A model generated the notes under the pieces. That model had not been told where the DNA came from. It was given only the letters and a program-made list of their open reading frames with translations, and made no database searches. From Bacteroidetes bacterium HLUCCA01 (lineage in GTDB: Bacteria > Bacteroidota > Rhodothermia > Balneolales > HLUCCA01): DNA of 64,000 nucleotides. The stretch's first letter is position 1; every line of letters starts with the position of its first letter. A program made the position numbers and the translations under genes. The stretch lies in contig LIHN01000015.1 of assembly GCA_001314545.1 (NCBI GenBank), positions 1 through 64,000 of the forward strand, in the 5' to 3' direction. Positions 18,483-42,290 of the stretch are shown here, one piece after another.

Positions 18483-18589
18483 GAGGTAAATTTTGATAAT
18501 CTATTGGCTGTTAAGCCGTAACTTGTAACGATAAAAACGAGCGGACTGGTCAGTTCATTGCCCGGTCTGACTTTTGGTAAAAGATAGCT

Positions 18590-19546
18590 ATGATAACGGC
18601 AGCCCATCGAATTAAAGAACTAAAAGACCGAATAAATACGTTCCGGCGCAGTGAAACTGCCCGTAAGCTCGGTCGCTGGACGCGCAGATTGGTGGTATTT
18701 GCCATACTGGCTGTAATTGGATGGAATCTATGGAGTCTGGGTTGGGGGGAAGTTCTGCGTTCCCTGCCGATGCATCCAGGGTATTATCTCATCTTTGTGC
18801 TTCTGTATTTGTCCCTTCCGGTGGCTGAAGTGCTGATTTACAGACAAATATGGCAGTTTCCAACTGCAAGTGGATTTCGGGTCTTTCTGAACAAGCGGGT
18901 GTACAACAATGAAGTAATCGGGTACTCCGGTGAGTTCTATTTGTATTTGTGGGCCAAGCGCAAGCTGGGACTACCCGGAGAGCAGGTTATGAAGGATGTG
19001 CGCGACAGCAACATTTTATCGGCACTGGTATCCTATCTGGTAGCCTTGACGCTGGTCGGGATCCTAGTCTTTGGGGGTGTCGTTGACCTGGAGGTCTGGT
19101 TTGGGGAGATTGATCGATTGCTGGCAGCTGCAGCGGGTGTGGTTTCCGTAATTCTGGTCGTAGTACTCATCCAATTCCGCCGCCACTTATTTTCTTTACC
19201 GAGAATGATTGCTCTACGGATTTTCGGCATTTATGTATTTCGTTTTGTGTTTCACCATGCAGGACTGGCAGTTATGTGGATGCTGGTGATGCCCGGGGCG
19301 CCCTTGACCGTTTGGATGACCTTCATCGCGATGTATGTAGTGATCAACCGACTCCCGTTTTTTCCCAGCAAGGACCTTGTTTTTGCCCTTGCCGGTATAG
19401 AAATGGCCGGCATTGTAGGGATTAATCCTGCCGAGGTTGCCGGGATGCTGCTGGTCTACAGCGCCTTGAATAAAATTGTGAACATGATTTTGTTCTCGGT
19501 ATTGTCCCTCAAGAAGGAGAAAGAATCCCTGACGGAAACGACCTAG
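18590..19546 (+). CDS. Integral membrane protein, flippase/UPF0104-like
   Basis: Polytopic inner-membrane protein with about six to eight hydrophobic segments (for example residues ~35-52, 62-82, 142-165 and 180-202, plus several after 215). The order of charged N-terminus, early transmembrane pair and late hairpins recalls lysylphosphatidylglycerol-synthase-TM-like (UPF0104) proteins, but no diagnostic motif is visible, so the family call is tentative. ATG start at 18590. It is divergent from the CrtC/AttH-like gene and converges with the FeS photolyase, separated from it by ~23 bases with no clear terminator. Confidence 0.65.
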   Translation: MITAAHRIKELKDRINTFRRSETARKLGRWTRRLVVFAILAVIGWNLWSLGWGEVLRSLPMHPGYYLIFVLLYLSLPVAEVLIYRQIWQFPTASGFRVFLNKRVYNNEVIGYSGEFYLYLWAKRKLGLPGEQVMKDVRDSNILSALVSYLVALTLVGILVFGGVVDLEVWFGEIDRLLAAAAGVVSVILVVVLIQFRRHLFSLPRMIALRIFGIYVFRFVFHHAGLAVMWMLVMPGAPLTVWMTFIAMYVVINRLPFFPSKDLVFALAGIEMAGIVGINPAEVAGMLLVYSALNKIVNMILFSVLSLKKEKESLTETT

Positions 19547-19569
19547 GCTTTGCTTTTTGCCGGAATTGA

Positions 19570-21207
19570 TTACTCTGAGAAGTTAATCTTTTTCCAGCGT
19601 GGCAGGGATTCAATAAAACGGGCAGCGTCTTTTCGGATGGTGTCTTTATCAGCCCGGGCGCGTTTGTCGAAGCTGTTCACCATAAATGAAACCCTTCTGT
19701 TTTCCTGAAATACATGACGGTGAGTATCTACAAAGTTCCAGTAGAGATAGTTGAACGGGCAGGCATCCGGACCGGTTTTGTCTTTAATTTTAAATCGGCA
19801 GGAGCTGCAATAATTGCTCATTTTATGGATGTAATTACCTCCGCTGACGTAGGGTTTTGAGGCCAGCACGCCACCGTCGGCGAAGGTTGACATCCCCAGT
19901 ACATTTGGTAGTACCACCCAGTCGTGCGCGTCGGTATAGGCGTACCAGAACCAAAGATAGAGTTGAAACGGGTCGGTCTGCGTGAGGTTGGAGAAGTTGC
20001 TGAGAACCATAAGCCGGGGAATGTGGTGCGACCACCCGTGTTCATGAACACCTTTTACGATGTCGTCTACACAGGCCATTCCGGAGTCGGCGGTCCAGAA
20101 GACTTCGGGTACGTTTCTGATAAAGTTCAACGCGTTGGCCGTGCGTACCTCCGGCATCATGGCCTCATAGTACACCCGCACGAACTCCCTCCATCCGATA
20201 ATTTGCCGGATGAATCCCTCAGCAGAATTTATGGGTGCGTGGCCGTGGTGGAAGGCTTGTTCTGCGCGCCGGCATAGTTCCATGGGGTTCAGGAGGCCTG
20301 TGTTGAGGTAGGCCGACAAGGAGGAGTGGAAAAGGTACGCCTCGCCTTTCAACATGGCATCTTCGTAAGGACCGAAGCGGGGCAGGCTGTGTGTGAAAAA
20401 GTGATCGGCCAGGGACTCCGCCTGTGCTCGGGTTACGGCCATGGTGAAATTGCCTGCGGTGCCGAAGTGATCCGGGAAAGTCGCTTCGGTGTATATCGTT
20501 GCCTCGGTGGTTATGGCATCGGGTTGAAAACCGGGGAAGTCCGGCAGGTCGATGGTGCGAGGCAACGGTTTACGGTTGTCTTTATCGTAGTTCCATTCAC
20601 CGCCTACGGGTTGATTTCCGGAGTCCATCAGCAGGTTGTATTTTCTGCGCATATCCCGGTAGAAAAACTCCATTCGATACCCCGGACTGATTTTTGGTCG
20701 ATACTCCTGTACATCGGCCAGGAAGAAGGTATTTGGGTGCAGGGTGATGTGCAGCGGGTTGCGGGCCTGCACGGCGAGCAGCGCTTCACGCTCGCCCAGG
20801 CTGGCCGGATGCATGCAATGCAGGGAGAATGTGGTATCGGGGGCAGCTGGAGCCGGGGGGGTGGAGTGGATTCCGTGTACGGGAGCGATGTTGCTGTCCA
20901 GCAGGGTGTTCAGGCAGGTACTGAAGGATTCATCCGTTATGGCGTAGTACACGGCCCGACCCTGCTCGATCAGTTCCACGGCCAGGTGGCGCATGGCGGC
21001 GATTTCGAAGACAATGCGTTTTTTATGAAAAGGGAGCAGTTTCCATCGCCGGGAAGACTCGATGAACAGGAATCCGGTTTCAGGCCGGGCGTTGTCGGGC
21101 AGGGCCTCCAGGAGTCGTTCCGGGTGCAGCTGGTCGGGATGAACGTACACCCAATGGTGCGGGGTTGCGGGCTGATGGCGGGAAAAAACGGATTGAAATG
21201 CTTGCAT
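19570..21207 (-). CDS. FeS-type photolyase/cryptochrome (PhrB, (6-4) class)
   Basis: Photolyase of the prokaryotic FeS-BCP/CryPro group, which repairs (6-4) photoproducts or acts as a light sensor. The C-terminus contains NYCSSCRFKIKDKTGPDACPF, providing three of the four Cys ligands of the [4Fe-4S] cluster. The fourth is probably Cys in GMACVDDIVKG. The FAD-pocket segment FIRQIIGWREFVRVYYE is typical of the group. The length of 545 residues is slightly above average. The N-terminal ~150 residues form the antenna-like alpha/beta domain. It belongs to a different class from the CPD photolyase nearby, so together they cover both main UV lesions. The single gene is transcribed away from the blaI gene. 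Confidence 0.93.
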   Translation of the reverse strand: MQAFQSVFSRHQPATPHHWVYVHPDQLHPERLLEALPDNARPETGFLFIESSRRWKLLPFHKKRIVFEIAAMRHLAVELIEQGRAVYYAITDESFSTCLNTLLDSNIAPVHGIHSTPPAPAAPDTTFSLHCMHPASLGEREALLAVQARNPLHITLHPNTFFLADVQEYRPKISPGYRMEFFYRDMRRKYNLLMDSGNQPVGGEWNYDKDNRKPLPRTIDLPDFPGFQPDAITTEATIYTEATFPDHFGTAGNFTMAVTRAQAESLADHFFTHSLPRFGPYEDAMLKGEAYLFHSSLSAYLNTGLLNPMELCRRAEQAFHHGHAPINSAEGFIRQIIGWREFVRVYYEAMMPEVRTANALNFIRNVPEVFWTADSGMACVDDIVKGVHEHGWSHHIPRLMVLSNFSNLTQTDPFQLYLWFWYAYTDAHDWVVLPNVLGMSTFADGGVLASKPYVSGGNYIHKMSNYCSSCRFKIKDKTGPDACPFNYLYWNFVDTHRHVFQENRRVSFMVNSFDKRARADKDTIRKDAARFIESLPRWKKINFSE

Positions 21208-21373: not shown

Positions 21374-21748
21374 ATGAAAAATCCGACCCTCGCCATTGGC
21401 GATTCCGAAATGGAGGTGCTGAATCATGTGTGGGAGCTCAGACAGGCGACTGTTGCCCAGGTGCATGAGCGCATCTTGCAGCATCGTAAAGTTGCGTATA
21501 CCACGGTGATGACCATGATGCAAAATCTGGCCAAAAAAGGGTATCTGTCTTTCACAAAAGATGGAGTAACCTACGTCTATCAGCCCGCTATTGACCCGGC
21601 GCAAGTTCGCCAGGACCTCCTCTCGCATCTGATGCGTAAGGCATTTCGGGGGTCACCAACGGCGTTGGTACAGACGTTGGTAAGTCAGGAAGCGCTGACG
21701 GATGCTGATCGGGAAGCGATACGGGCTATTATCGATACTATGGAGTGA
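21374..21748 (+). CDS. BlaI/MecI/CopY-family transcriptional repressor
   Basis: Small (124 aa) winged-helix repressor. The N-terminal two-thirds shows LAIGDSEMEVLNHVWELRQATVAQVHE and the recognition-helix region KVAYTTVMTMMQNLAKKGYL, typical of BlaI. The C-terminal part is the dimerisation and cleavage region. The partner M56 sensor gene starts immediately after, giving a BlaI-BlaR1-type signalling pair in which the sensor peptidase would inactivate the repressor. A TACTA/TAGTA palindrome lies at 21325-21340. No beta-lactamase gene is adjacent, so the signal and target genes are unknown. Confidence 0.92.
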   Translation: MKNPTLAIGDSEMEVLNHVWELRQATVAQVHERILQHRKVAYTTVMTMMQNLAKKGYLSFTKDGVTYVYQPAIDPAQVRQDLLSHLMRKAFRGSPTALVQTLVSQEALTDADREAIRAIIDTME

Positions 21749-21753
21749 TACAG

Positions 21754-23982
21754 ATGGAACCTATACGCCTGTGGCTGGAGCAGTTCGGGGCTGCCGGATG
21801 GATTTTTGTATGGGCACCCATGCTGTTCTGGAGCTTTTTTGCATTGTCGGTGTGGATGTTGCTGAAAGCGACGGGGTTTCGGTTGCATCCGGCCTATCAC
21901 CACGCCGTGCGCCTCGCTGTCATTATAGCATTGCCGCTGGGGATTATGGTTACCGTGATAATCTCACGTTTCGCCTCATTGCCGGAACATATATTGCCCC
22001 TGATGGTGATGTTAAACGATGCCATGGCTGTTCAGTCGCTGCCAGAGATTATCGTCACAGACCTAGCGGAAGAGACGGCGGATGGCGGTTTGTTTACCCA
22101 TATCGGTAGTGTATCGGTTCCTGTCTGGCTGGGATTGGGTCAGGTGATGGTCCTTACGGTTGGGGTAGGATTGCTCATCCGGCACGGGTGGAATCATGTC
22201 CGTCTGGTGGCGCTTCGACACAACGAACTGCGGCCTGCGAGTCAGGCCATTCATGAAGCAGCCCGGGACTTGCTAAACCATGCGGGCGCAGACCCGGCGC
22301 GTGTTGAATTGGCTGTGGGGGATGTTGAAGTACCGTTTACCTTTGGCTGGCTCCGCCCCGTTATTGTGCTTCCAGACCGGGAGTTCAATCCAGAGAAATT
22401 GAGGTCGTTATTGGCGCATGAAATCATGCACGTGCGCCATAACGATTATCTGATCGAGTGGATGGTGCAGGTATTACGCGCCGTCTGCTGGTTCCATCCG
22501 TTGGTGCAGGTGTACGCTCGCGACGTGCACCGGTACCGCGAGATGTTGTGCGATGCGGAAGTCATATCGGGCATGATCGCAGACCCGCGTTCGTATGCTT
22601 CGTTGTTGCTGGAGTTTTCCGGTGGTAACCGACAGCCTGCTTTGTCGGTCATGATATCCATGGCCACAACCGAATCACGACTTAAAGAACGAATACTTGC
22701 TATGCCAACATATCCTAAATCGCCCGAACAATTAGCCTTAACCCGTCGGACCAGTATACTGACGGCATTTTTAATCATGGCCACTCTCTTGTTTACCATG
22801 GCCCTTACGGCGTCACCGGCCGGTGATGTAACCATGCAGACATCGACTCAGCTTACCGACATTGCTGCAACTCCAGTCTCGAGTCATTCATCAGAACCCC
22901 TCGCAGCAGCAGATAGTGTGTACCGGGTTGCCGAAAAAATGCCCGAACCGGTGGGAGGGATGTCGGTTTTGTACAATAATGTACGGTATCCCGAATCGGC
23001 GCGGGCCGACTCTCTCGAGGGACGGGTTCTTTTGCAATTTGTGGTCTCTGAGCGTGGGGAAGTTATTGATCCCCGTGTTGTTCAGGGTATCCGTCCCGAC
23101 CTGGACCAGGCGGCACTCCAGGCCCTGGAAGGTATACGGTTTTTTCCCGGTATTCAGGATGGAGAGCCGGTTAAGGTTCAGTTCATGCTACCCATCGTGT
23201 TCCGGCTTCAGCCCGGAGCTCCGCCGCCACCGCGCAATCAGGACCAACCTGCTTCGCACAACGGTGAAGACGTTTTCATCGTAGTTGAACAAATGCCGTC
23301 TCCAATTGGCGGTCTCGAATCCATCTACAACAACATACGCTATCCTGAAGCGGCACGCGAAGCCGGTGTGGAGGGTCGGGTTGTGGTCCAGTTTCTCGTC
23401 GACAAGGAAGGCAACGTAGTGGATCCGTTTATACTGCGCGGTATAGGGTATGGAGCTGATGAAATGGCCCTTGATGCCATAAAAGAAGCGAAATTCACAC
23501 CCGGAGTACAGCGTGGTGTACCTGTTAATGTAGTGCTGCAATTACCCATCGTATTTCGGTTAGATAAGGAAGAAGAACAAGAGCGGGGCAGCCGGGAACG
23601 GATGCCGGATACCGGTGAACTGGATGCCCTGTTGAACGACCCTGCTTATGAGCATATTGGCGGGTCGTTGGTGAGAACCCAACGATCATTCTCCGAAAAT
23701 TCCGGCACCGGTAACCAGTTTGCTGAACTCAGGGGGCGGGTCCGAGATCGAAGTCACCTTGGCTTCATCGCAGGGGCCAATGTGTTGGCGCGCCATGACG
23801 ATAGTGGTCGTGAATACGGTGCCAGCACAGACCCTGAGGGCAATTTCCTGGTTCGTGGTCTGCCGCCCGGTAATTATTCCATAGAGATTACCTATCCGGG
23901 CTATCATCGCCGTTGGTTCGGGTTCAACGCTGTTGACCACGGTGAAATACTCTGGGCTGATGTAGTTCTTGGGATTCCCTAG
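21754..23982 (+). CDS. BlaR1-like M56 metallopeptidase with two TonB C-terminal domains
   Basis: Inner-membrane sensor-protease. Transmembrane segments occur at ~18-38, 52-72, 120-142 and ~340-354 (from the ATG). The M56 zinc motif is HEIMH (His222, Glu223, His226), with a downstream CDAEV segment. Instead of a BlaR1 penicillin-binding sensor domain, the periplasmic part has two TonB C-terminal-like domains (~392-485 and ~505-600; each with YPESAR/YPEAAR, ...GRVLLQFVV/GRVVVQFLV and a FFPGIQ/FTPGVQ end). A carboxypeptidase-regulatory-like beta domain follows (~655-742). The ATG at 21754 with GGAG 8 bases ahead is preferred over the overlapping GTG at 21745. It is operonic with blaI. Confidence 0.88.
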   Translation: MEPIRLWLEQFGAAGWIFVWAPMLFWSFFALSVWMLLKATGFRLHPAYHHAVRLAVIIALPLGIMVTVIISRFASLPEHILPLMVMLNDAMAVQSLPEIIVTDLAEETADGGLFTHIGSVSVPVWLGLGQVMVLTVGVGLLIRHGWNHVRLVALRHNELRPASQAIHEAARDLLNHAGADPARVELAVGDVEVPFTFGWLRPVIVLPDREFNPEKLRSLLAHEIMHVRHNDYLIEWMVQVLRAVCWFHPLVQVYARDVHRYREMLCDAEVISGMIADPRSYASLLLEFSGGNRQPALSVMISMATTESRLKERILAMPTYPKSPEQLALTRRTSILTAFLIMATLLFTMALTASPAGDVTMQTSTQLTDIAATPVSSHSSEPLAAADSVYRVAEKMPEPVGGMSVLYNNVRYPESARADSLEGRVLLQFVVSERGEVIDPRVVQGIRPDLDQAALQALEGIRFFPGIQDGEPVKVQFMLPIVFRLQPGAPPPPRNQDQPASHNGEDVFIVVEQMPSPIGGLESIYNNIRYPEAAREAGVEGRVVVQFLVDKEGNVVDPFILRGIGYGADEMALDAIKEAKFTPGVQRGVPVNVVLQLPIVFRLDKEEEQERGSRERMPDTGELDALLNDPAYEHIGGSLVRTQRSFSENSGTGNQFAELRGRVRDRSHLGFIAGANVLARHDDSGREYGASTDPEGNFLVRGLPPGNYSIEITYPGYHRRWFGFNAVDHGEILWADVVLGIP

Positions 23983-29334: not shown

Positions 29335-30507
29335 TTAAAATCGCCAGGTCACCATCAGATGGTTTCCCATATAATCGGCCCTGGCTGTAGTTTCTAAACG
29401 ATGCTGGCGCATTTTTATGGTGAAGTAGGCATCAAATGCGGAAATCACATGGTTGAAGATCAGGGTGGAAACCATGTTGTTGGCCAGTTTATAGGCATCG
29501 TTGAAACGACGGTTCTGAGCCGCATGGTTCAGCCACATGGCCGACATACCCGCATTACTGGCCAGATTGACCGAATTGACGGCGTCATCCCAATCGCGCC
29601 ATCCGGGACCGAACTGCCAGTACTTGCTCATGAGCTCGTAGTATTGCTGCGATCCGAAAGGGTTTACTTCGTGGGTAAAGTTGGTCCCGCTTGTATATCG
29701 GCTGCGGCGTTCCATTTCATTGAGGGCCTCACGGTTAACCCAGCTCCATTCCAGTGGAGCGTTATAGGCCGGATCCGGAAATCCCGTTTCCGGATTGGCG
29801 GCGGCACGACCAGCCTCGGTAAGCAGGTCAGCCGGTAACAGGTCCGGTGCATCGGGATTTCGAGCTCCGCTCATATAGTAGTTGTGGACCCATGCGGTAT
29901 ACTTGACCAGCGACCAATTTGAATCACCGTAGGCATTGTAGCTCCTTTGCAGCCGGTCGCCACGACGAGATGCATCCACATACAGGTAAACAACGGCAAC
30001 TTCTACGGCTGCCATAAGACCAGCCTTCCAATATTGTCGGTTAGCAGTCTGACCCAGTCCCGGAAGGATCAGCGAGGCCAGCAGTCCTTTGCCCGGGGAA
30101 TTGCTGATTTGTTCAAAAACGGAACGGCCTTGTGAGCTGGAGACAGTTATGTTCGCAGCAGGTCGCATCTGTAGAATATCGGCACTGGCGTCGGGGGAAG
30201 AGGGGATATCCAGACGGTACAGGTCGGAGGAGGGCCGTATGTCAGGACGGTACGAGGTAAACCACCTTTGGGTTGACAGATTCACTTCCGGAAGGGAACG
30301 CGTAAGCGGCCGGTGTGTTCCGGCCGTTGCAGCAGCTGAAAATCCGGCTTCCGGCAGCGGCCAGGCATACACTGCGCCCGGGCCGGTCAAGGAGACAGAC
30401 AGCCGTGGGTGGGAGGAACCCTGACCCTGCACTCCCTGCATGGCGATTGCGTGGCTTACAGAAAGCAAAAGCGCGATTGTTATGCCAAAAACGAGACGCA
30501 GTACCAT
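29335..30507 (-). CDS. DUF5683-like secreted protein
   Basis: Exported protein with a Sec signal peptide (residues ~1-22). The central SLILPGLGQTANRQYWKAGLMAAVEVAVVYLY, read as a hydrophobic stretch beginning with the PGLGQ motif, is typical of DUF5683 or P-loop-less small membrane-associated proteins common in Bacteroidota. The rest contains an extended region with predicted beta content and ends LMVTWRF. The terminal Phe may indicate outer-membrane insertion. The function is unknown. It lies in the run downstream of porU-porV and 14 bases after the peptidase-propeller-barrel gene, so it may belong to envelope assembly. Confidence 0.7.
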   Translation of the reverse strand: MVLRLVFGITIALLLSVSHAIAMQGVQGQGSSHPRLSVSLTGPGAVYAWPLPEAGFSAAATAGTHRPLTRSLPEVNLSTQRWFTSYRPDIRPSSDLYRLDIPSSPDASADILQMRPAANITVSSSQGRSVFEQISNSPGKGLLASLILPGLGQTANRQYWKAGLMAAVEVAVVYLYVDASRRGDRLQRSYNAYGDSNWSLVKYTAWVHNYYMSGARNPDAPDLLPADLLTEAGRAAANPETGFPDPAYNAPLEWSWVNREALNEMERRSRYTSGTNFTHEVNPFGSQQYYELMSKYWQFGPGWRDWDDAVNSVNLASNAGMSAMWLNHAAQNRRFNDAYKLANNMVSTLIFNHVISAFDAYFTIKMRQHRLETTARADYMGNHLMVTWRF

Positions 30508-30521
30508 AAGCTGTTGGCTGG

Positions 30522-33500
30522 TTAGAAGTCGAAATCGAATAATAATCCGAAGTTAAACAGAACTTCCCGTCCGAACTGAACTGAGCTTTGTCCTGTGGTG
30601 GTGATGAAGGACTCGGGCAGGTTCACATCGAACGTATCAAGACCGTATGCGGCGCTGATGAACAGTCTGGAGGGGAACAGGTAGTAGGAGCTCATGCTCA
30701 ATCGGAGTTCGGCACCGATGCCGGATTTCAGGTTGTTTCCAACCTGCAGCGGACCACCCCAGCCGTTTCCTGTTTCCGCAAATACACGCATGAAGAGCTT
30801 GTCAATGGTGAACCGTCCGGCCTGATAATGGATGCGTTCAAACAGGGGCTGGTGGTAGTTGAGTTGGGTGAAAAACGTAGTATTACCGCCCAGAGCGAAG
30901 AATGAGTAGCTGCGCATGGCAGGCAAACCGCCGATGTAATCCAGGAAGAAGTATTCATCGCTGCCGTTGAAATTCGTAAAAAAGCGGCTTCGAACGTCAA
31001 AGAGTCGGTTTGATAGTGCCTGAAATCCGTAACGGATGTCCAGCTCAGTGGTATGTATGCGGTAGTCGTTGTACTGAGGGATGAGCTCTCCGCCGCGAAT
31101 ATCGTAGCCGTCTAGCAGGGAACTGGGCTGAAAGCTGTAGCGCAGGGAGGTGGTAATACCGCGCTGAACGATGTCGGAGTGCCGGTGGGGAGTGTTGACA
31201 TTCAGGAAGTACCCGGCGGTATAGGTATTTCCGATGAAATACCGCGAGGAGGAGCCGCCTATGGTCTGGCGGAACTCCCGGGAAAAGAAAGCGTTGGTTG
31301 AAACCCGGTACGGACTATGATACCATCCCAGCTCTATCACACTGAACCGGTTTATTTTGCTTATCAGACTGATTTGGGCCTGCCAGATATCGTAGGCAAT
31401 GCCGATGTTGGTGGTATCGGGCAGACAGGCGGTGCAGGGGAATTCCTCCACAGAGAGTCCGTCAGCTACATTGCGGCGAATGTTGAACAGCTCGATGGAA
31501 ACCGTGGGCGACCATTTGGCATCAATGAAGGGCAAACCACGGTATTCGGCCATCAGGAACAGATCGCGGTCCATGGCACTCAGACCGGCCGGGCGGATGT
31601 AGTCGCCCAGCTGTTCGGCATCGGTTGAACCGGGACCCAGCAGGGCTCCGCCGAAAATACTGAAGCGATCCAGCATTTCCCGGGAGCTGAAATACATACC
31701 AACCTTGGCATCGCGCCAGATATTGGCGCCCAGGTCGGCAATACGTCCTGAGGTGAGCAGGTCCGCATTGGATCCCTTGATTTTGCTGTAGTTATCGAAT
31801 CGGAGGGCCGGATAGATACTGAAGGAGGTAAACGTGTCCTGGTAGGGATACAGGGTGCGCTCTGCAGGAATATCTGCCGGTGGATTTCCCTCCGAGGGAA
31901 TCTGAAACGGGTGAGCTTCCATCCGACGGTTGGTGAACAGGCTGTCTGGCAGGGGGGTAAGGTCGGTATCCATAACGCCGTTCAGCCAGGAGGTTGCCTG
32001 CAGCTCACCGAGCTGCTCCTGCGGGGTATAGGGTCGCTGATAGGAGGGATGTACCTGACTGAGCAGTGAGCTGGCGTCAGTGGGGAACTGGATGTTTTCA
32101 GCGATCGGTGCGGGACCTGCCCTACGGATTTCATAACCGTGTGCAACGTATTCTGCATAATAGATATTTCCGTTGGTATCACTGTGTGGCATGAATGCGC
32201 CACCGGTCACGCTGGTGAGCTGGCTCACGGATCCGGTACGCAGATCCAGGGCATAGATATTGTAAATACCGTCGATGTCTGAGCTGAAATACAATGTTTC
32301 TCCGTCACTGCTTACGTGTGGGTCACGGAAGTCCGCGGCATCATGCCGGAAAATGGTGGACTCACGACCACTTTCCAGATCGAATAAGCGGATTTCCCGG
32401 TGTGCATCGCGAGCCCATGCGTAGTAGAGGTATTTGCCCTCAGGGTGCCAGGCAGGCGCGTAAATCTGCTCACCGCGGTCGAATCGGGTCAGACGTGTTA
32501 GTGATGGGCTGCCGGCATCACGTACGGGTTCATCCTTAGCTTTTTGAATATCCAGCATCATCAGGTTCAGAACACCGTCTTCCCGGATGAGTACCGCAGC
32601 ACGGTTACCGTCAGGATGCACGGTTGGGTCGCTCAAACGGGCACCCTTCGAAAGGCGCTCGCTTTTTCCGGTATCGCGATCGTGCAGGAAAAGGTCGTTA
32701 TAGGGTTCACCGAATCGGGTTTCCAGAATTCGGTTGTACAGAATCTGCCGACCGTCCGGCATGAAACTGAATGTGTTTTGAATGAAACGGATTTCCGGTT
32801 CCAGCTCCAGTCCGCAGCTAAGGGTGAATCCTTGCTCAACAAAGGCCCGGGAGGTTGCCTGAGGCAGTGCCTCGAGCTGACCGGTTGCTATGTCCCGGAT
32901 GAACAACTGCACCCGCGAGTCGTCCCGGCCACGGTTCGACACATACGCAATTTCGCTTCCGTCAGGGGATATTACCGGGTAAAAATTGAAGAATCCGTCG
33001 CCCTCAATCAGCTCCCCGCCGGAGACCTTCCGGCCTTCCAGTTGTGAAGTGTAATGGTCGCGAAGGGAGCTGACCCAGTCCTCAAAAACCTGCTCGCCGG
33101 GCTTGCCGGTAGCCATTTCAAGGGCTTTACTTACATCGAAAACACCACGCTGTGAAAAAGCCCGGGTTATTTCGTTGAGTACCTGCTCGCCGTAGGTTGC
33201 CGCAAGGTAGTGGGTAAATGCGAAGCCCTGATTATAGGTTACCTCGCGTTCAATGCTGGTTTTTGAGGCAAACGTACCCATCCGCTCGAAAGACAGCTGT
33301 GTATTATTGAGAATGCGGGTACGCAGAATCATGTCGCGGTGGGAGTCCCAGTAGTCGTAGTGGATATCTGCCCGTTGATACTGAGCCGTGCCTTCTGCCA
33401 GCCACGCCGGTAATCCTACTGCCGACAGCGGGTAGCTGATTACGCCGCTGGGATAGCCATAGAGCACGTCGGGGCGCCGTACGTCTTCATAGCTGAGCCA

Positions 33501-33980
33501 TTGCAGGTACGTTATGGCTCGCTGGCGCGGATTCTTCATGGAAGCCTGAATCTGTATGATATGCACAAATTCATGGGTAACCACATTGCGTAACCAGTTA
33601 TGGGAGCCCCTCAGCGGGGAGTCAAGCGACGGCAGCCATATTTCAATTTTATTGTCGAGGAAGAAGGCTGCTCCGTTTGCGTAATCGAGTCGATCGTTCA
33701 ATACTACTGAAACCTTGCTGTCTGGTTCGTAGTCGTACAGCGCGGTGATGTCCGGATAAATTTCCTCCAGAATCCGGGAGGTTACCTGCGCCGGACGACT
33801 ATTACCCTCCTGAAAATGAACCAGAAAATGGTCGCTTTCAATTGTAAACCATTCCATGTGCTGCATGGGATAGCCATAAAACTGCGGATTCCTGAATTGA
33901 GCCTGTACGACGGCTGAACCAAGGCACAGTAATGCGATGATCAGTATGGATGCGCGTTTTAGCACGGTGCGGTGCCTCAT
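30522..33980 (-). CDS. Outer-membrane peptidase MA-like / TolB propeller / beta-barrel protein
   Basis: Large (1152 aa) exported protein with three parts. After a signal peptide (~1-28) comes a gluzincin-type peptidase MA-like domain with an intact zinc motif HEFVH (His136, Glu137, His140) and a downstream AEGTAQY Glu196. A TolB/PD40-like beta-propeller follows (~325-650; repeats such as ISPDGSEIAYVSNRGRDD and SSDGETLYFSSDIDG). The last ~390 residues look like an outer-membrane beta-barrel, ending in DFDF. Its ATG overlaps the stop of the M6-like gene by four bases (ATGA), showing tight coupling. It may process or display surface proteins near the T9SS, which is inference. Confidence 0.82.
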   Translation of the reverse strand: MRHRTVLKRASILIIALLCLGSAVVQAQFRNPQFYGYPMQHMEWFTIESDHFLVHFQEGNSRPAQVTSRILEEIYPDITALYDYEPDSKVSVVLNDRLDYANGAAFFLDNKIEIWLPSLDSPLRGSHNWLRNVVTHEFVHIIQIQASMKNPRQRAITYLQWLSYEDVRRPDVLYGYPSGVISYPLSAVGLPAWLAEGTAQYQRADIHYDYWDSHRDMILRTRILNNTQLSFERMGTFASKTSIEREVTYNQGFAFTHYLAATYGEQVLNEITRAFSQRGVFDVSKALEMATGKPGEQVFEDWVSSLRDHYTSQLEGRKVSGGELIEGDGFFNFYPVISPDGSEIAYVSNRGRDDSRVQLFIRDIATGQLEALPQATSRAFVEQGFTLSCGLELEPEIRFIQNTFSFMPDGRQILYNRILETRFGEPYNDLFLHDRDTGKSERLSKGARLSDPTVHPDGNRAAVLIREDGVLNLMMLDIQKAKDEPVRDAGSPSLTRLTRFDRGEQIYAPAWHPEGKYLYYAWARDAHREIRLFDLESGRESTIFRHDAADFRDPHVSSDGETLYFSSDIDGIYNIYALDLRTGSVSQLTSVTGGAFMPHSDTNGNIYYAEYVAHGYEIRRAGPAPIAENIQFPTDASSLLSQVHPSYQRPYTPQEQLGELQATSWLNGVMDTDLTPLPDSLFTNRRMEAHPFQIPSEGNPPADIPAERTLYPYQDTFTSFSIYPALRFDNYSKIKGSNADLLTSGRIADLGANIWRDAKVGMYFSSREMLDRFSIFGGALLGPGSTDAEQLGDYIRPAGLSAMDRDLFLMAEYRGLPFIDAKWSPTVSIELFNIRRNVADGLSVEEFPCTACLPDTTNIGIAYDIWQAQISLISKINRFSVIELGWYHSPYRVSTNAFFSREFRQTIGGSSSRYFIGNTYTAGYFLNVNTPHRHSDIVQRGITTSLRYSFQPSSLLDGYDIRGGELIPQYNDYRIHTTELDIRYGFQALSNRLFDVRSRFFTNFNGSDEYFFLDYIGGLPAMRSYSFFALGGNTTFFTQLNYHQPLFERIHYQAGRFTIDKLFMRVFAETGNGWGGPLQVGNNLKSGIGAELRLSMSSYYLFPSRLFISAAYGLDTFDVNLPESFITTTGQSSVQFGREVLFNFGLLFDFDF

Positions 33981-36900
33981 CTTGCCACCACCATGGTTAT
34001 GGTCATATGTTCAGTTTTTCCGTCGCCCCGGGCCGTAATACGGGCAAAATAAACGCCGTTGGCCCAGTTACGGGTGTTGATCCGCACATCGGTTGGCATC
34101 ATGCCGGGGGTTTGTTGGCGGGTTTCGTAAACGGGTTGACCGGCATAGGTAATCACACTCAGGGAAACCTCGGCAGCGGCCGTGGTCATAAATCGCAGAT
34201 GAGTATGGTCGGTTGCGGGATTGGGCCAGTTGTAGGTCTCCTCAGCCACGAGCAGCCCGCCGGAGGGCTGATTCTGATCAACGGCAAGGACAATGCCGGC
34301 CATATTGTGTGTCGGACTCCCAAACGGATAGGATGTTGCATTGCTGTAGCTCTCCTCCAGTCTCCAGCTTCGAAGTTCACCACCCGGAGCCACGCTATAC
34401 AGGACACCATCCAGGAGAACCGGTTGCAGTAAAGTCCTGTCATTGCCGGTGCTTCCAATCAGCAGCGTTTCCACAGGTTGATTTAAACGGTCTGTCTGAT
34501 AAACGTGCAGGGAATAGCTGTATGAATTGGTGCCGGGTATCAGCAATAGTGTTTCGTCGGACGAGGGGTGTTGAGCGATGAGCGGCGTACCGATGAAATG
34601 CCCTGACTCTGCCTGCTCAGGTCTGAGGGGGAATCCGTCAAGCATGGCTCCCAGCTGATTGCGTGCTTCGAGGGTCCCTTGGCTGTGATTTACGTACACG
34701 ATGTCCGCCCGATGGTCACCATCCAGGTCGTGAAGCAGCGGCCATCCGTAATCAGCTGCAGCCATATCGGCTAGAATATCGCCTGATTGCCCGTCAAGGA
34801 AGAGAAATCGCTCCGATGTGATCACCAGAAAGACCGGTGTGCCGGTTTCACCGGATTTCGTTACGGCGAGGTAAAGGCGCTGCGAGGCCGATTCCGGACC
34901 GCTCAGCGTAAAGATATCGGATTCATTTTCGCTCTGAATCCGGCCGTCGGTTAACGCCCCATGTCGTGTGACGCCGTCAGCACTGCCTGATTGGTAGCGA
35001 TTTACCACGCGGGTTTCTGCGATGGATCCGTCGGTTTTGTTCAGCACCAGAGGGGTTCCGGCAACCTCAATGGTCTGACTGTCGGATGGATTTCGGATCA
35101 GCGCGCTGGCCCCGTCGGGTATAGATTGATTCCACAGCTGCGTAAACTGCGATGACGGTATGTCCCATTGCACGTGGACAACTTCTCCCCGGCCGCCAAG
35201 GGTAATACCATCACTCCATATGAGCGGTTGAAGCAGGGGGGAGGGCAGATTGAAAAACTGTTCGTTACCGGTGCCGGTGTGCATCAAGGTAAATCCATTT
35301 TCAGCTGGTAGTACAAGCAGGGTGTCCGTCTGGCTGACAAACCGGCTGACAGCCAGCGGCGGTCCGCCGGTATCTTCCAATGTAAACGCGCCGGATGGCG
35401 ATGCACCGGGTTGTGGCAGCTCCGCTGGTTGAAGCCGGACCGAACCACGATCCGCCCGCACATCGAAGGTTGCGTTAACCTGGTAGTCTGAAAAGTTAAG
35501 AAACTCAAAATAGGTACGTGCTCCGCTGTTGCTGCGGTTGTTCGGACGGGTGTCATCGCCAAACCGATTTTCATACAGTACGATGCGTTCACCATTCTGC
35601 GTAATGACGGTGAAATCATTCCCCGCCCACCAGAAGTCAAATGCTGCACCCTGTGCATATTGTGTGAGCCCGCCTGCCGGCCGGCCGATATCCTGGGCCG
35701 CATCGGCTTCAACCAGGCGCACACCCTTTTGATCGGGATTGTTATTGATGGCATTATCTTGAATCCGTTCGCGTATTATCTGGTCATCAATATGCCAGAT
35801 GAGGATGCCTCCGTTCAGAAAGCGGTCGTCATCGGTGCCCGTTTCCCGGTCATCTCCGGCATCCAGCTGGCCCGGCAGGCTCCAGTCGAAATGGCTCACG
35901 TCTACCAGCACACCGGGGGGGATGAAATCGCGGATTTCGGAAAGGTCACTGTTGGAAAACCGGGTTTCATCACGTGGTATATTTACCGTTTCAAGAACTC
36001 CGTCGGGACGGCGTATGGTCAGCTCGAGGCCGGTACCCCGGGGATCCCGTATGCGATTTTCAATCAGGAAGTATTCGTCAGATGATATGGGCAGTTTGGC
36101 GATAGTACCCTGAGTGCCGTTGCCGGGCGCGGTGACCGTAACCTGGCCTGATGCGGCTACGGCGTCTGAAATATCGAACGGGGTAACCCAGCCGAGGTGC
36201 GTTTTTTCCCAGGCGGAGGGTTCCGGCGGGAACAGGCCGAAATAGGAGAAAAAGCCGGCACCGTCCATGAGTCCGAACCGACCGATTCCCGACTCACCGG
36301 TATCGGTGTTGAAAAGGTCGGGCAGCCCCAGAAAGCTGCCTACCGTTGCAGTCAGAATACCATTGATGGATAGTTCCAGCACAAAGGACTCGCCAATTAC
36401 GCTTTCCCCGGGACGTGATTGTGTCTCCGGCAGAATCGCGCTGTTGTGCACGATATTTCCGTTGACATTAAATCCGCCAAAATCCGGAGTCTCCAGCAGA
36501 CGGCTTAACGAAGTACGGGACAGAAATACGGATGGTATATCCTGCGGGGTCTTGGTCAGCGTTGTTCCCACCAGCTCCAGGTCGCGACCAACCCCGGCGT
36601 GAAAGATGACGTACATCGTGCGATCCGGGTCCAGGGTTCTGCCGCTGAGCATGCCCTGACGGTCTGCTTCCTGCCATACATCGCGGGCCAGGAAGGCCAG
36701 TTTTTCGTTCTCTTTCCCGTCTTCACCCAGAGGGCTGTAGGCAGCCATTTCCTGCTGAAGGGTGACAATTTCGGGAAGTACTTCGTAGGAGACGCTCAGC
36801 TGATCATTGGAAACCCGTTCGAAGTAGTTTTTTGCGAACAGGAGGTGTGCCTCAAAGTAGCCCCGGTCATGAGGAAGCGGATCGATGGTAATATCATCAC

Positions 36901-37114
36901 GGTCCAGAAAGTCCGGATTAAAGGTTCCGTCCCCGGAGGTGAAACGGTTGTCATCGCGTTGAAACTCGACCATCACAGCAACGATGTGGATATTTCCGCT
37001 GGCGGTTACGGATGCCTGGTCATGCTGTGGCTGACCGGCAAAAACAGGCCAGGTGGCCAGGAGCATCAGTCCGATGCTGCTAAACCACCCGGTAAATGAG
37101 ATGATCGTACGCAA
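33977..37114 (-). CDS. M6-like metalloprotease homologue with dead zinc site and T9SS sorting domain
   Basis: Secreted 1045-residue protein resembling immune-inhibitor-A/M6 metallopeptidases. After the signal peptide (~1-27) comes the M6-like region. The family normally reads HExGH followed by LGLPDLY; here the LGLPDLFNTD block is retained but the HExGH is Ala256-Thr-Val-Gly-Ser260. Downstream GIGRFGLMDGAG and WEKTHLGW are conserved, so this is a real homologue without catalytic residues. The C-terminal ~80 residues (YNWPNPATDHT ... WANGVYFARI) form a T9SS type A sorting domain. The start is TTG at 37114. It lies 10 bases after porV. Confidence 0.85.
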   Translation of the reverse strand: MRTIISFTGWFSSIGLMLLATWPVFAGQPQHDQASVTASGNIHIVAVMVEFQRDDNRFTSGDGTFNPDFLDRDDITIDPLPHDRGYFEAHLLFAKNYFERVSNDQLSVSYEVLPEIVTLQQEMAAYSPLGEDGKENEKLAFLARDVWQEADRQGMLSGRTLDPDRTMYVIFHAGVGRDLELVGTTLTKTPQDIPSVFLSRTSLSRLLETPDFGGFNVNGNIVHNSAILPETQSRPGESVIGESFVLELSINGILTATVGSFLGLPDLFNTDTGESGIGRFGLMDGAGFFSYFGLFPPEPSAWEKTHLGWVTPFDISDAVAASGQVTVTAPGNGTQGTIAKLPISSDEYFLIENRIRDPRGTGLELTIRRPDGVLETVNIPRDETRFSNSDLSEIRDFIPPGVLVDVSHFDWSLPGQLDAGDDRETGTDDDRFLNGGILIWHIDDQIIRERIQDNAINNNPDQKGVRLVEADAAQDIGRPAGGLTQYAQGAAFDFWWAGNDFTVITQNGERIVLYENRFGDDTRPNNRSNSGARTYFEFLNFSDYQVNATFDVRADRGSVRLQPAELPQPGASPSGAFTLEDTGGPPLAVSRFVSQTDTLLVLPAENGFTLMHTGTGNEQFFNLPSPLLQPLIWSDGITLGGRGEVVHVQWDIPSSQFTQLWNQSIPDGASALIRNPSDSQTIEVAGTPLVLNKTDGSIAETRVVNRYQSGSADGVTRHGALTDGRIQSENESDIFTLSGPESASQRLYLAVTKSGETGTPVFLVITSERFLFLDGQSGDILADMAAADYGWPLLHDLDGDHRADIVYVNHSQGTLEARNQLGAMLDGFPLRPEQAESGHFIGTPLIAQHPSSDETLLLIPGTNSYSYSLHVYQTDRLNQPVETLLIGSTGNDRTLLQPVLLDGVLYSVAPGGELRSWRLEESYSNATSYPFGSPTHNMAGIVLAVDQNQPSGGLLVAEETYNWPNPATDHTHLRFMTTAAAEVSLSVITYAGQPVYETRQQTPGMMPTDVRINTRNWANGVYFARITARGDGKTEHMTITMVVAR

Positions 37115-37124
37115 GTTGGTGGGA

Positions 37125-38243
37125 TCAGAAATTCAGGAGCAGAGAGAATCGGATGGTATTGGCGAGCGGGTGATTTTCCTTGAGGGTCTGCAGATAGCTG
37201 AAATCAACCCCGAAGATATTGTAGCGGATACCTGCCCCGAAGGTCAGGAACTGCCGGTCACCGTTGTTGGGCGACTCGTAAAAATATCCGCCCCGGAGAG
37301 CGAACATTTGGTTATACCAGTATTCGGCACCAATTCCAATCATCAGCTGCTCCGACAGGGGGACTTCCACAGTTTCCTGAGAAAGAGCATCAAAACGCTG
37401 GTAGCTGTCCCACGATCGGAACAGGGCTTCAAAAACGGGCATGGCTTTGCCGGTGGAGTCGTTGCGGGCCATGACTTTTGAAATGTCATTGGCGATGGTC
37501 AGTGTGTTATACCCCTCGGTGTCAAGGTCCATATTCAGCGACCAGCCGGCACGGAAAACGGTGGGCAGGGGGTCGCGCTGCTCATCGTCCACATACTGCA
37601 TGCCCTGTCCGATGTTGGAAAGGTTAAAGCCCACGTTAAATCGTGCATCACGGTCTGCCACGGTAAAGGGGTTGGTGCGATACAAACCGGCGATATCGAA
37701 CCCGACACTGGCTCCGTTCTGCGCCGTCTGACCGCCTACATCAATTCCGGCCGGTACCAGTCGGCTGTAGATGAATCGAAAACCTGCACCCAGTGCGAAG
37801 TTTTCGTTCAGTTTGATGCCATGCGATAAACCGGCGGCCATTTCGTAACTGCGGAATGTGCCGAGCTCGTTACCGATTTCATCGGTTTGTACCTGTTCGC
37901 CGAGATCGAAGTAGGTGATATGGGCGCCGAAATTCCCCAGACCGTTGACATGGTACTTGCCTGACAGGTAGTAGTAGGTCAGATCCGTATTGAAATTGGG
38001 CAACCATTCTGAACGGGTTACACTGACCTGGGAGGTTTCATCCTGGAAAGCGAAACCGGCGGGATTCCAGAACAGTGCAGTGGCATTATCGGCAACGGCT
38101 ACGCCGGTATTGCCCATACCGGCGGACCGGGAATCGGGTTCAATCTGAAGAAAAGGAACAGCCGTTATACCTACCTGGGCAGATGCTGTGACGGCGGTTA
38201 TTCCCGTAATCAGTATGGCTAGAAAATAAGTACGCATGCTCAT
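37125..38243 (-). CDS. porV: Type IX secretion system outer-membrane protein PorV
   Basis: Outer-membrane beta-barrel component of the type IX secretion system that shuttles cargo from the translocon to the PorU attachment complex. It has a Sec signal peptide (~1-22), then QIEPDSRSAGMGNTGVAVADNATALFWNPAGFAF, the PorV/PorQ-family hallmark. The rest alternates beta strands, ending in LLLNF with terminal Phe. The length of 372 residues is typical. It sits 69 bases downstream of porU in the same direction, the conserved porU-porV order. PorQ is a close alternative, but adjacency to porU supports PorV. Confidence 0.92.
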   Translation of the reverse strand: MSMRTYFLAILITGITAVTASAQVGITAVPFLQIEPDSRSAGMGNTGVAVADNATALFWNPAGFAFQDETSQVSVTRSEWLPNFNTDLTYYYLSGKYHVNGLGNFGAHITYFDLGEQVQTDEIGNELGTFRSYEMAAGLSHGIKLNENFALGAGFRFIYSRLVPAGIDVGGQTAQNGASVGFDIAGLYRTNPFTVADRDARFNVGFNLSNIGQGMQYVDDEQRDPLPTVFRAGWSLNMDLDTEGYNTLTIANDISKVMARNDSTGKAMPVFEALFRSWDSYQRFDALSQETVEVPLSEQLMIGIGAEYWYNQMFALRGGYFYESPNNGDRQFLTFGAGIRYNIFGVDFSYLQTLKENHPLANTIRFSLLLNF

Positions 38244-38312: not shown

Positions 38313-41300
38313 TTATCTGATGATGACCAGCCGTTCAATTTTTTCCCGCGTTCTGGATTGTCCGTTAAAATCACTGCGAACCTGCACATGATACAGATAG
38401 GTACCGGCCGCAAGCAGGTTGCCGTCATCATCCCGACCGTCCCAGCTTAGCTGAATATTATTTCCGGCAGGGATGTAATTGTCGCGCTGAAGTCGAGCTA
38501 CCGGCTTTCCACTAAGGGTATAAACCCGGATTAACAAATCCAGTTCCCGTCCTGATTGATTGTGCTCGAATACGAAGCGGGTGTAGGAACTCATCGGATT
38601 CGGATAGTTGTATACGTGTCTTAGCTCAAGATCCTGTGCCCGGGCGACTTCGAAGGTGACTTCCTCCTCGTTCATATTGTTGAATACATCCCAGGCCCGT
38701 ATACGTAACGTGTATTGACCGTCCTGAAGTCTGTCCAGCGGGTATTCTACGGTTCCACGGGTGAAATCGTCAAGTTCGCTGCGGTAAAAGTTGTTCAGGA
38801 TGAAGGTTTCTTCACTGCCGCTGCCGTCTGCGCGTGACAGATACCCGACCAGTTCATGGCCAACTCCTGCACCGGCTGTATTGATTCCGGACTGATCTTC
38901 CAGGTTCACGAGCAGTCTGGGAGTGTCATTGACCAGATCGCCGTCAGCAAAGGTTTCATCGTTCAGAAATAGTTGAATATCCGGGCCAGTTCCGTCGTTT
39001 TGGGCGTCCGGGTTACGGCCGTTGAATACAATATTGGAGAAGGAGGCCACGGCATCGCCCCCGTCCGGTGTGCTTCCGTACAGCAGTATCCTGCCGGTAG
39101 TGTCGTCGTAGGCTATGTCATTGGGCACAATAAAACGACCGGTGAAGGCGCCGTTTGTAACGGAGACCCTGCCGCTGAATATTACATCGTTCTGCACCCG
39201 ATACTGGCACCCGGGAAGACTGTTGCAGTTGACACGCTGCGCTATGCTGATGAAGCGGTCAGCGTCATAGACCTGAATGGCTGCCTCACCATTGAAACCG
39301 GTGTTTATGCTGCCATCCGGATTGGTAATTACCCCGTTAATCCGGGCCTGATCCAGTGCCCGCAATGTGACACGATTGCCGGAATCGGTGTTTTGTGTAT
39401 TGATTTGTGTAATCTGCGCCTGTGAGCGGGGCAGGCCGATGCGCATGGCAGGGTCACCCAATAAAACGAATTTCCTACTGTTGAAACTGGCCCCCACGGT
39501 GGTATTCTTCGTGTTCAGATAGATATCACCGAGTGTCTGTGGAAGGCCATTATTATCGCGCTCAACCATCTGTAGCGTGAGCTGGATATTAAGCCCGAAA
39601 TTAAAACTGGTCTGACTGGTACTAGTGAATACCACGCGGGTGGTGGTGAAGGCTGCAATGGCCCCGCCGTTGGTCCAGTTAATGAGTTTTTCGGCACCGG
39701 AGTAATCGTCGGGATCGTCAAAACGGCCGAAATCGCAGGTTGCTGTTACGAAAATCGTAGGACGGTCGGCATTGTTTAGCCGTTCGATGTCATCGCTGGT
39801 AAACAGACGTTCTGCTGTGAGCTGTTGTTCACTGCCATGGCCCGAGAAGTTCATGATCAGGGTGCCGTTGTTGATGCTGTTGATGAACGCCTGTGTGGCT
39901 TCGGGTGCCAGCCGTCCGAGTGGGGTATTTACAGAAGGATAGCTTATTTGATAGACTTTGTTAATTCTGACTCCCGAGTTGTCACGATTGATACGCTCTG
40001 CGGTTCCGTCAGCATTCCACACGTGCAAGTCGTTTTCATTGGTATTAGGACCGTTTTCGTTGTTGTCAGAAGAAAATGTAAATATGGTCCGCCAGTCGCC
40101 GTAGGTTTCCGGACTTTCATAACGCCGAATCTTTTCAATCAGATTACGGGCTTCGGCACTCGTCTGCACCGGCAGCCGGCCCACGCCCATATCGATGCGT
40201 TCAAAGGTGGAAAAAGAGCTCACGGTGGGTGCCCACACCCCCTCATTACTGTCCAGAAGCACGAACAGATCATCGCTGCCGTAGGTTGATGTACGCCGCA
40301 GCGATTCTTCACTCTGGAATGTGAATACATGGTTGATCATCCGTGACGAACGATTGATACCCCTGAAATCGAAGGTCGTGTTGCCAAACAAAAGCAGATG
40401 TCTGGGGATGCGTTCGTCATCCATTCCGGCCCGCAGGTAAAGAAATCGCACATAATCACGAATGGCGGTTACATCCGGCACACCACCGGAAAATTCGTTG
40501 AAAATCTGGTTTTGCGTTACCACAACCGGCTCCCATCCCCCGCTGCTTCGCCGATAATCTGCGAATTCAAGGGCCTGTTCGAGTAAGTCATCACTGGTTA
40601 CGATGATGTAATCGGGAAAACCGGTAATACCTCGGAGATTTTGAGCCGGGACAGCATTACCGCTTTCCGGTCGCAGCAGTCGGGTGTGAGCAACAAACCT
40701 TCGACCGGCCTCTGCATTATGGCGTACCCGGTAGTCGTTGCCCTCTGTAACTACTTCAAGCAACATGGGTTGAAGTGGGTTGGTTACATCCATTACGAAG
40801 GGGACACTCGCGAAGCCTGAAAGCCGGAAATCGGCAATTTCACCCGGCTGACCGTCCGTGGGCGACCAATAATGGAGTACACCGTTTCGGGCACGAAGCT
40901 CGCGGGTAGCGGTAACCCGAATCCAGTCAATCCAGCCGATCCCATCGTTTGACAGGGATGTGAATGTGGCCTGCAGGTTCAGGATGTCGTCATCGAGGGT
41001 GACGTTGTCGAGCGTCTGATTGATTTGGGAGCGGTTTGCGGCAATTCCGCTGGATGAATTGAGTGTGGAAGATGAAATGCCGGGTATCTGTGCGCTGCCT
41101 ACGTTGAGTCCGCCAAGCTGAAAACTAAACTGGGAGTTACGTGTGCCGCGTGCAATCACATCAACGGAAATCTGGACAGGGGTACCTGAAACGTGACCGG
41201 AAAGGGTGTCAAGGAGTATGCTTTGGGTTCGGTTGACGGCATCGGCGTTAAACTGCTGACCGAACCACTGCTGACCCGACTTGGTTCGGGTATCAGGACG

Positions 41301-42239
41301 GCGAAGGTCTTCTTCTTTCCATATGAAATCGGTGAACGTACGCAGCGTTCGGTTTGCAGGTTGAGACACCGGGATTTCCTGCAGCCTGCTGCCCCGGGTA
41401 TCACCCACGGTGATGAAAACATAGTTCAGGTTGCTGTAAGGATGAATGCTATGTTCGAAGCGGTTATTGGCTGTATCGAAGCGGACGTCGTGCTGACTGC
41501 TGCCGTAGAAAATAACAGCATCGGAGGCGTTGAGCTGTCCGTCGGCCTCACCGGTTACCAAAATCGGGACCTCCGTAAATTCAGGTCGCGGTGTTGCATT
41601 CAATCGCGGAAGCTCGGTACCCGGAGCGCGCCATACCTGTATATTCCTCGGATCAGTGTTATTTACATCAATTCCGAGGTTCTGAAGGTAGGCCCGGTCC
41701 AGAATGTAAATACCATCCCGGCTAATGGGGATTTTGTACCAGGTTCCGGTGGATAATGGGCCGGGTGTATCCAGCTGCATCTGCCGGGAGAGCCTGGTTT
41801 CGGTTTCATCCCAGATGGGTTCGTGATACACACGGATCACAGCCCGTCGGGTGATCAGCAGATGCCGGTCGGAATCCGGATCACGCCGGGTGACGTGTAC
41901 CAGCAAGGACGCCACCCGCTGTTTGCGGTAAACCCCCGGGTTTTCCGTATGAATAACCGGTGAGTTTTCGGGTACCTCTTCCAGGATTTGATTCAGGTCG
42001 GCATCGTCAGCAATACGATCACGGCGAACAATTTCCTGCTCGAGCACCCTCCAGGTCTGACGGTTTCCATCGTGCGGAATGGTCAGTTCGAAGCGGTACA
42101 CCGCGCGGAGGCTGTCGTTTTCCAGGACGTAGTCTGTGAATGAATCTGTTTGTGTCAGAATCTCAAGGGTCTGCGCACGGACGCCGTAACTGCACATAAG
42201 TACGGTTACGACCAGCAGAACGGATCTTCTAAAAATCAT
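38313..42239 (-). CDS. porU: Type IX secretion system sortase PorU
   Basis: Gingipain-family (C25) cysteine sortase of the type IX secretion system, removing the C-terminal signal of cargo and attaching it to surface lipopolysaccharide in the model species. After the signal peptide (~1-23 from the ATG at 42239), a long N-terminal beta region is followed by the C25 domain. The catalytic pair is His801 in MNFSGHGSEQ and Cys835 in FVTATCDFG. The C-terminal ~100 residues carry a T9SS-type sorting and FlgD-like domain (NYPNPMSSYTRF ... AGTYLYHVQV). The length (1308 aa) fits PorU. An alternative TTG at 42254 adds five residues. Confidence 0.93.
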   Translation of the reverse strand: MIFRRSVLLVVTVLMCSYGVRAQTLEILTQTDSFTDYVLENDSLRAVYRFELTIPHDGNRQTWRVLEQEIVRRDRIADDADLNQILEEVPENSPVIHTENPGVYRKQRVASLLVHVTRRDPDSDRHLLITRRAVIRVYHEPIWDETETRLSRQMQLDTPGPLSTGTWYKIPISRDGIYILDRAYLQNLGIDVNNTDPRNIQVWRAPGTELPRLNATPRPEFTEVPILVTGEADGQLNASDAVIFYGSSQHDVRFDTANNRFEHSIHPYSNLNYVFITVGDTRGSRLQEIPVSQPANRTLRTFTDFIWKEEDLRRPDTRTKSGQQWFGQQFNADAVNRTQSILLDTLSGHVSGTPVQISVDVIARGTRNSQFSFQLGGLNVGSAQIPGISSSTLNSSSGIAANRSQINQTLDNVTLDDDILNLQATFTSLSNDGIGWIDWIRVTATRELRARNGVLHYWSPTDGQPGEIADFRLSGFASVPFVMDVTNPLQPMLLEVVTEGNDYRVRHNAEAGRRFVAHTRLLRPESGNAVPAQNLRGITGFPDYIIVTSDDLLEQALEFADYRRSSGGWEPVVVTQNQIFNEFSGGVPDVTAIRDYVRFLYLRAGMDDERIPRHLLLFGNTTFDFRGINRSSRMINHVFTFQSEESLRRTSTYGSDDLFVLLDSNEGVWAPTVSSFSTFERIDMGVGRLPVQTSAEARNLIEKIRRYESPETYGDWRTIFTFSSDNNENGPNTNENDLHVWNADGTAERINRDNSGVRINKVYQISYPSVNTPLGRLAPEATQAFINSINNGTLIMNFSGHGSEQQLTAERLFTSDDIERLNNADRPTIFVTATCDFGRFDDPDDYSGAEKLINWTNGGAIAAFTTTRVVFTSTSQTSFNFGLNIQLTLQMVERDNNGLPQTLGDIYLNTKNTTVGASFNSRKFVLLGDPAMRIGLPRSQAQITQINTQNTDSGNRVTLRALDQARINGVITNPDGSINTGFNGEAAIQVYDADRFISIAQRVNCNSLPGCQYRVQNDVIFSGRVSVTNGAFTGRFIVPNDIAYDDTTGRILLYGSTPDGGDAVASFSNIVFNGRNPDAQNDGTGPDIQLFLNDETFADGDLVNDTPRLLVNLEDQSGINTAGAGVGHELVGYLSRADGSGSEETFILNNFYRSELDDFTRGTVEYPLDRLQDGQYTLRIRAWDVFNNMNEEEVTFEVARAQDLELRHVYNYPNPMSSYTRFVFEHNQSGRELDLLIRVYTLSGKPVARLQRDNYIPAGNNIQLSWDGRDDDGNLLAAGTYLYHVQVRSDFNGQSRTREKIERLVIIR

Positions 42240-42290
42240 CTTACGGAAAGACAAAGCGTATTGCGCGTGTGTTAAACGAGGGTAAAACGT

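Follow-up and report, generated by a model that had tools for sequence, protein, structure and literature searches.

A T9SS-dependent M6 protease homologue with a family-wide loss of its zinc motif is co-inherited with a predicted barrel metalloprotease

The window analysed here is a whole stretch of 64,000 nucleotides of Bacteroidetes bacterium HLUCCA01 (contig LIHN01000015.1, positions 1 to 64,000). On its minus strand, four genes follow each other in the order PorU, PorV, M6i and barrel gene, where M6i is an M6-like protease homologue predicted to depend on the type IX secretion system (T9SS) for export and the barrel gene encodes a predicted metalloprotease. The features discussed below are the following.

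29335–30507, minus strand: DUF5683 protein, the usual gene after the barrel gene (profile match, loci of relatives)
30522–33980, minus strand: barrel metalloprotease of 1152 amino acids, with a gluzincin (peptidase MA) domain, a TolB-like PD40 propeller and an Omp85-like outer-membrane barrel (profile matches, alignment)
33561–33575, minus strand: zinc motif HEFVH at residues 136–140 of the barrel metalloprotease (invariant in alignment)
33977–33980, minus strand: ATGA overlap of the M6i stop and the barrel gene start, suggestive of translational coupling and also present in at least eight relatives
33977–37114, minus strand: M6i, 1045 amino acids, with a TTG start and a signal peptide to about residue 26
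34007–34228, minus strand: T9SS type-A sorting domain of M6i, residues 963–1036 (PF18962)
34355–35347, minus strand: beta-propeller-like region of M6i, residues about 590–920, weakly conserved in sequence (AF2, Foldseek)
35399–37009, minus strand: predicted M6-fold region of M6i, residues 36–572 (AF2, Foldseek)
36185–36379, minus strand: former active-site region of M6i, residues 246–310, the most conserved part of the chain
36335–36349, minus strand: A-T-V-G-S (residues 256–260) of M6i in place of HExGH, within a predicted helix of residues 251–261 (codons, AF2 model)
37125–38243, minus strand: PorV, the T9SS shuttle (NF033710, 293.3 bits; cut-off 250)
38313–42254, minus strand: PorU, the T9SS sortase (NF033707, 1036.7 bits; cut-off 420)

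M6i matches model NF052323 with 1008.9 bits (cut-off 600) over model positions 32–1043 of 1043. A first-pass annotation of this DNA had pointed to the M6 landmarks LGLPDLFNTD, GIGRFGLMDGAG and WEKTHLGW, to the replacement of HExGH by Ala256-Thr-Val-Gly-Ser260 and to an intact C-terminal T9SS sorting domain, and each of these was found as described. The codons GCA ACG GTA GGC AGC at 36349–36335 encode A256-T-V-G-S260 directly N-terminal to FLGLPDLFNTD. Both His residues and the Glu of the zinc motif HExxHxxGxxD are thus gone, and only the Asp of LPD, presumably the third ligand of HExxHxxGxxD proteins, is retained; inspection of the M6i chain for a real zinc motif elsewhere revealed no other. 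The sorting domain scores 30.5 bits with PF18962 (Por_Secre_tail; Pfam cut-off 27) and also lies above the cut-off of TIGR04183. In profile searches, M6i had no match to PF05547 or to PF21544 (the N-terminal propeller domain of PorZ), and its TIGR03296 score of 50.3 bits was under the cut-off of 110.8.

Foldseek searches with full-length M6i were dominated by propellers, and the M6 domain was therefore modelled separately. The AF2 model of the M6 region has a mean pLDDT of 88.4, and a Foldseek search of the PDB with this region alone returned immune inhibitor A2 (4yu6/4yu5) with an E value of 1.1e-14, all other matches being insignificant. The propeller-like region is all-beta in the AF2 model and its Foldseek matches are propellers. 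A PDB sequence search with M6i alone found no relative, and a PDB search with the profile of its domain gave chance-level Sir2 matches and nothing else.

The loss of the zinc motif is common to the whole family. Both His residues and the Glu are absent in all 131 distinct M6i orthologues with a readable motif, which carry Ala, Ser or Gly at the first His position, Ser, Asn, Gln, Thr, Met, Arg, Gly or Ile at the Glu position, and Ser, Asn or Gly at the second His position; no intact HExGH occurs among them. Neither of the two outcomes named in the first-pass annotation as refuting it, a real zinc motif elsewhere in the chain or orthologues with an intact HExGH, was therefore observed. The only HExxH sequence in M6i relatives is an HEMAH at about residue 138 in two near-identical proteins, and it is absent from the window protein. 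Matches to M6i are present in 58 of 60 related genomes, nearly all of them strong and full-length or close to it. Versions with an intact motif coexist with these proteins, as four proteins from the same order (L190–L192 and L194) have the zinc motif in an M6 context. A divergent M6i subgroup in family f15 (L082:8892-11936, L083:8315-11290 and L084:8797-11820) scores under the NF052323 cut-off; its motif is dead too (ANTGN, ANFGN), and the order PorU, PorV, M6i, barrel gene is retained.

Conservation of M6i is highest around the former active site, where residues 246–310 score 0.663. The sorting domain reaches 0.51 and the propeller 0.24, and the average over the full protein is 0.38. Among pairs with measurable dS, the dN/dS of the M6 domain is 0.02–0.09. 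Because the cleft is conserved despite the loss of the zinc site, it appears to be kept for something besides zinc catalysis. We found nothing in favour of a local mutation, a decaying gene or a sequencing error, given the shared loss in 131 of 131 orthologues, and consider such an origin to have practically no chance of being correct; decay is also countered by the long stop-free frames and by dN/dS values far below 1. With the predicted fold kept, the zinc site lost family-wide, the sorting domain kept and purifying selection strong, the designation of M6i as a secreted pseudoprotease is supported at the level of sequence and predicted structure, and its fold is predicted to be that of M6 enzymes of the immune inhibitor A type. 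A different, non-zinc enzymatic activity on the same fold could account for the polar and invariant residues Asn251, Asp266 and Asp284 near the old site. However, the replacement positions vary (Ser, Asn, Gln or Thr; Gly, Ala, Phe or Leu), unlike a new catalytic set, and Asp266 and Asp284 sit in landmarks common to ordinary M6 enzymes, and we regard such an activity as highly improbable.

The neighbouring barrel protein has an intact gluzincin site. Its His136, Glu137 and His140 as well as Glu196, the third ligand, are invariant across 23 sequences, so that only one member of the pair is dead. Peptidase_MA_2 was matched in all 23 barrel proteins, with the window copy under the Pfam cut-off, and PD40 in 21 of them; Pfam Omp85 was matched in two of the 23, with a best E value of 3.6e-8. 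In our reading, the barrel consensus GGLxGMRGYxxxALGGN resembles the Omp85 signature.

Gene order is well maintained in relatives. PorV lies directly upstream of M6i in 108 of the 109 loci with enough sequence, PorU is found farther upstream in 75 of 94, and the barrel gene is located downstream in 85 of 95; the linkage of M6i to PorV is thus tighter than that to the barrel gene. In most loci, those of distant relatives included, the next gene after the barrel gene encodes a DUF5683 protein. Two interruptions were seen, a barrel gene with one in-frame TGA (G108:C6:73879-77097) and a PorV divided over two frames (L062:5942-7077), both probably sequence errors or recent breaks. Elsewhere in the window, positions 21745–23982 encode a fusion protein in which an M56 peptidase of the BlaR1 type is combined with a carboxypeptidase-regulatory-like domain and two TonB C-terminal domains. 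In the cluster at positions 15943–21207, one gene encodes a deoxyribodipyrimidine photolyase-related protein (DPRP), and a weak match to the photolyase FAD domain occurs two genes from it.

Presence of the two genes was compared across 198 genomes, with thresholds of at least 358 bits for M6i and, in a single unbroken match, at least 1026 bits for the barrel gene. M6i and a full-length barrel gene occur in the identical 78 genomes, with zero discordant cases, and the best barrel-like match outside these 78 scored 175 bits. A chance probability for such identical sets disregards the relatedness of the genomes and plays no part in the argument. In eight genomes from four families (G064, G072, G128, G135, G165, G172, G176 and G212) the two genes are unlinked, being located on separate contigs or at a distance of 0.86 Mb, yet both are kept. 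On the SprA tree, the M6i pattern forces at least five gains or losses on well-supported branches, and the barrel gene shares all of them. PorU is found in many genomes without M6i, PorV was present in seven of seven M6i-less genomes tested, and the Rhodothermia families f6, f8, f9 and f11 have PorU and lack both M6i and the barrel gene. Since PorU and PorV belong to the same cluster and are equally close, yet do not track M6i, adjacency alone is insufficient to explain the co-inheritance. A deletion scar between PorV and the DUF5683 gene in genome G055 (L254:8713-9232) retains remnants of about 120 and 150 bp of M6i and the barrel gene, which were removed together; because one deletion took out both adjacent genes, this joint loss was not counted as independent evidence of a partnership.

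M6i orthologues are distributed over Balneolales, Rhodothermales, Ignavibacteria (Melioribacteraceae) and one MAG of Chloroherpetonaceae. The families with strong PorU scores in the 198-genome sample that are of the Bacteroidia type had no M6i; their assignment to Bacteroidia derives from genome features.

The proposal in the first-pass annotation that the neighbouring peptidase-barrel protein might be the partner of M6i thus receives strong, if indirect, support from the identical presence in 198 genomes and the eight unlinked cases; M6i may bind or regulate this protein. The co-inheritance could also reflect a shared pathway without contact. That the two proteins are functional partners in some form seems likely to us. 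One alternative explanation would make M6i a surface ligand-binding protein (an adhesin, or a receptor for glycan or peptide capture), with the barrel as its specific anchor or display platform and the gluzincin domain cleaving M6i for maturation or release. The strict co-inheritance and the conserved cleft are consistent with this idea, as is the variable propeller of M6i, a type of domain in which ligand binding is common. It leaves the invariant gluzincin site unexplained unless M6i or the ligand is the substrate, however, and M6i is without a known ligand; we think it quite unlikely.

Several T9SS genomes lack the sortase. G022, G034, G044, G047 and G058 have neither PorU nor PorZ, and SprA, PorV, M6i and the barrel gene are kept in all five; the gene order in G034 and G044 is thiolase, PorV, M6i and barrel gene, with PorU absent. 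According to the trees, these losses of PorU and PorZ occurred on at least three separate branches in Balneolaceae. The PorU-less genomes have 7–32 sorting-domain matches compared to 32–75 in the compared genomes with PorU and PorZ. At the locus level, PorU is missing upstream in L066, L067, L110, L112, L120–L122, L125 and L154. The loci without an upstream PorU include contigs of Rhodohalobacter and of uncultured Aliifodinibius. M6i and the barrel gene are thus independent of PorU and PorZ. The idea that M6i solely assists the PorU sortase was rejected on the basis of the five PorU-less genomes that keep PorV, M6i and the barrel gene. A role as a replacement of PorZ was likewise rejected, as a separate PorZ gene exists in the window genome and PorZ is present in most genomes with M6i.

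The same genomes bear on a further explanation, in which M6i is a PorZ-like part of a shuttle and attachment machinery centred on PorV. M6i would stay on PorV through an uncleaved C-terminal domain (CTD) and help receive, hold or anchor other type-A cargo, with the barrel protein in the same machine or cleaning up afterwards. The near-constant position of PorV upstream of M6i fits this explanation, as does the retention of SprA, PorV, M6i and sorting-domain proteins in the PorU-less genomes. Moreover, PorZ (5m11) is the third-ranked match of full-length M6i in Foldseek, and PorU is also among the matches, but the PorZ match stems from the propeller and sorting domain only. PorV, PorU and PorZ operate without M6i in many genomes, and G055, from which M6i and the barrel gene were deleted, still has PorV and nine sorting-domain matches. 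On balance, we consider a PorV-centred role of this type unlikely.

The reading that we prefer, with a probability of roughly one in two, is that M6i is an obligate exported, non-catalytic partner of the barrel metalloprotease that acts in substrate capture or presentation or in control. M6i is strictly linked to an intact gluzincin, and a non-catalytic subunit is therefore the most economical interpretation. M6i would be translocated by SprA of the T9SS, and PorV would take up its type-A CTD. PorV has been described as the shuttle for type-A CTDs (PMC12618676), and the attachment complex of P. gingivalis consists of PorZ, PorU, PorV and PorQ, with the CTD of PorZ remaining uncleaved (PMC8545088). 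By analogy, M6i is probably delivered by PorV and held there, and it may stay on PorV, more so where PorU is absent. It would then remain at or near the cell surface, with an M6 cleft that has no zinc, would not cut, and may have been selected as a binding site, possibly for peptides. There M6i would capture substrate and present it to the Omp85-like gluzincin, or control the activity of the latter by activation or inhibition. The N-terminal domain of Omp85 proteins is normally periplasmic and a finished T9SS substrate is outside. For M6i to meet the barrel protein, either the peptidase would have to be displayed at the surface (as in PlpD), or the two would have to come together during export or through the barrel. 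More tentatively still, M6i and the Omp85-like gluzincin might constitute a two-part protease or maturation machine at the cell surface. Such a T9SS accessory module would function in the absence of PorU and have M6i as its substrate receptor or switch.

If correct, the partnership would be a rare bacterial example of a dead protease working with a live protease at the outer membrane, and the pair would represent an ancient T9SS-linked module of Balneolales, Rhodothermales, Ignavibacteria and relatives that is apparently absent from the well-studied Bacteroidia. T9SS genomes that have no sortase and keep PorV with the M6i-barrel module bear on the role of PorV alone. In addition, a pseudoprotease family that had a name and no function gains a specific, testable partner.

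A literature search found no paper on the NF052323 M6i family, and both its partnership with the barrel protein and its independence of the sortase appear undescribed in the literature searched. The family itself has already been named by NCBI, which limits the novelty: the equivalog model NF052323.1 (T9SSA_dep_M6i, 'T9SS-dependent M6-like inactivated metalloprotease') matches M6i over nearly its whole length and has its dead motif and CTD, but gives neither function nor partner. With M6 enzymes of the immune inhibitor A type (InhA2, PDB 4yu5/4yu6; TIGR03296; PF05547), M6i shares the predicted fold and the LGLPDL, GLMDG and LGW sequences; it differs from them in the absence of HExxH and in profile scores that are under cut-off or lacking. 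PorZ resembles M6i as a surface T9SS protein with a propeller and CTD that associates with PorV and PorU (PMC8545088), but has no M6 domain. The barrel protein, in turn, may resemble the WD40-Omp85 subfamily of Omp85 proteins, described with no function assigned (PMC4104836), in that a TolB-like propeller appears to precede an Omp85-like barrel; it differs from this subfamily by an additional gluzincin domain at the N-terminus, whose zinc ligands are invariant.
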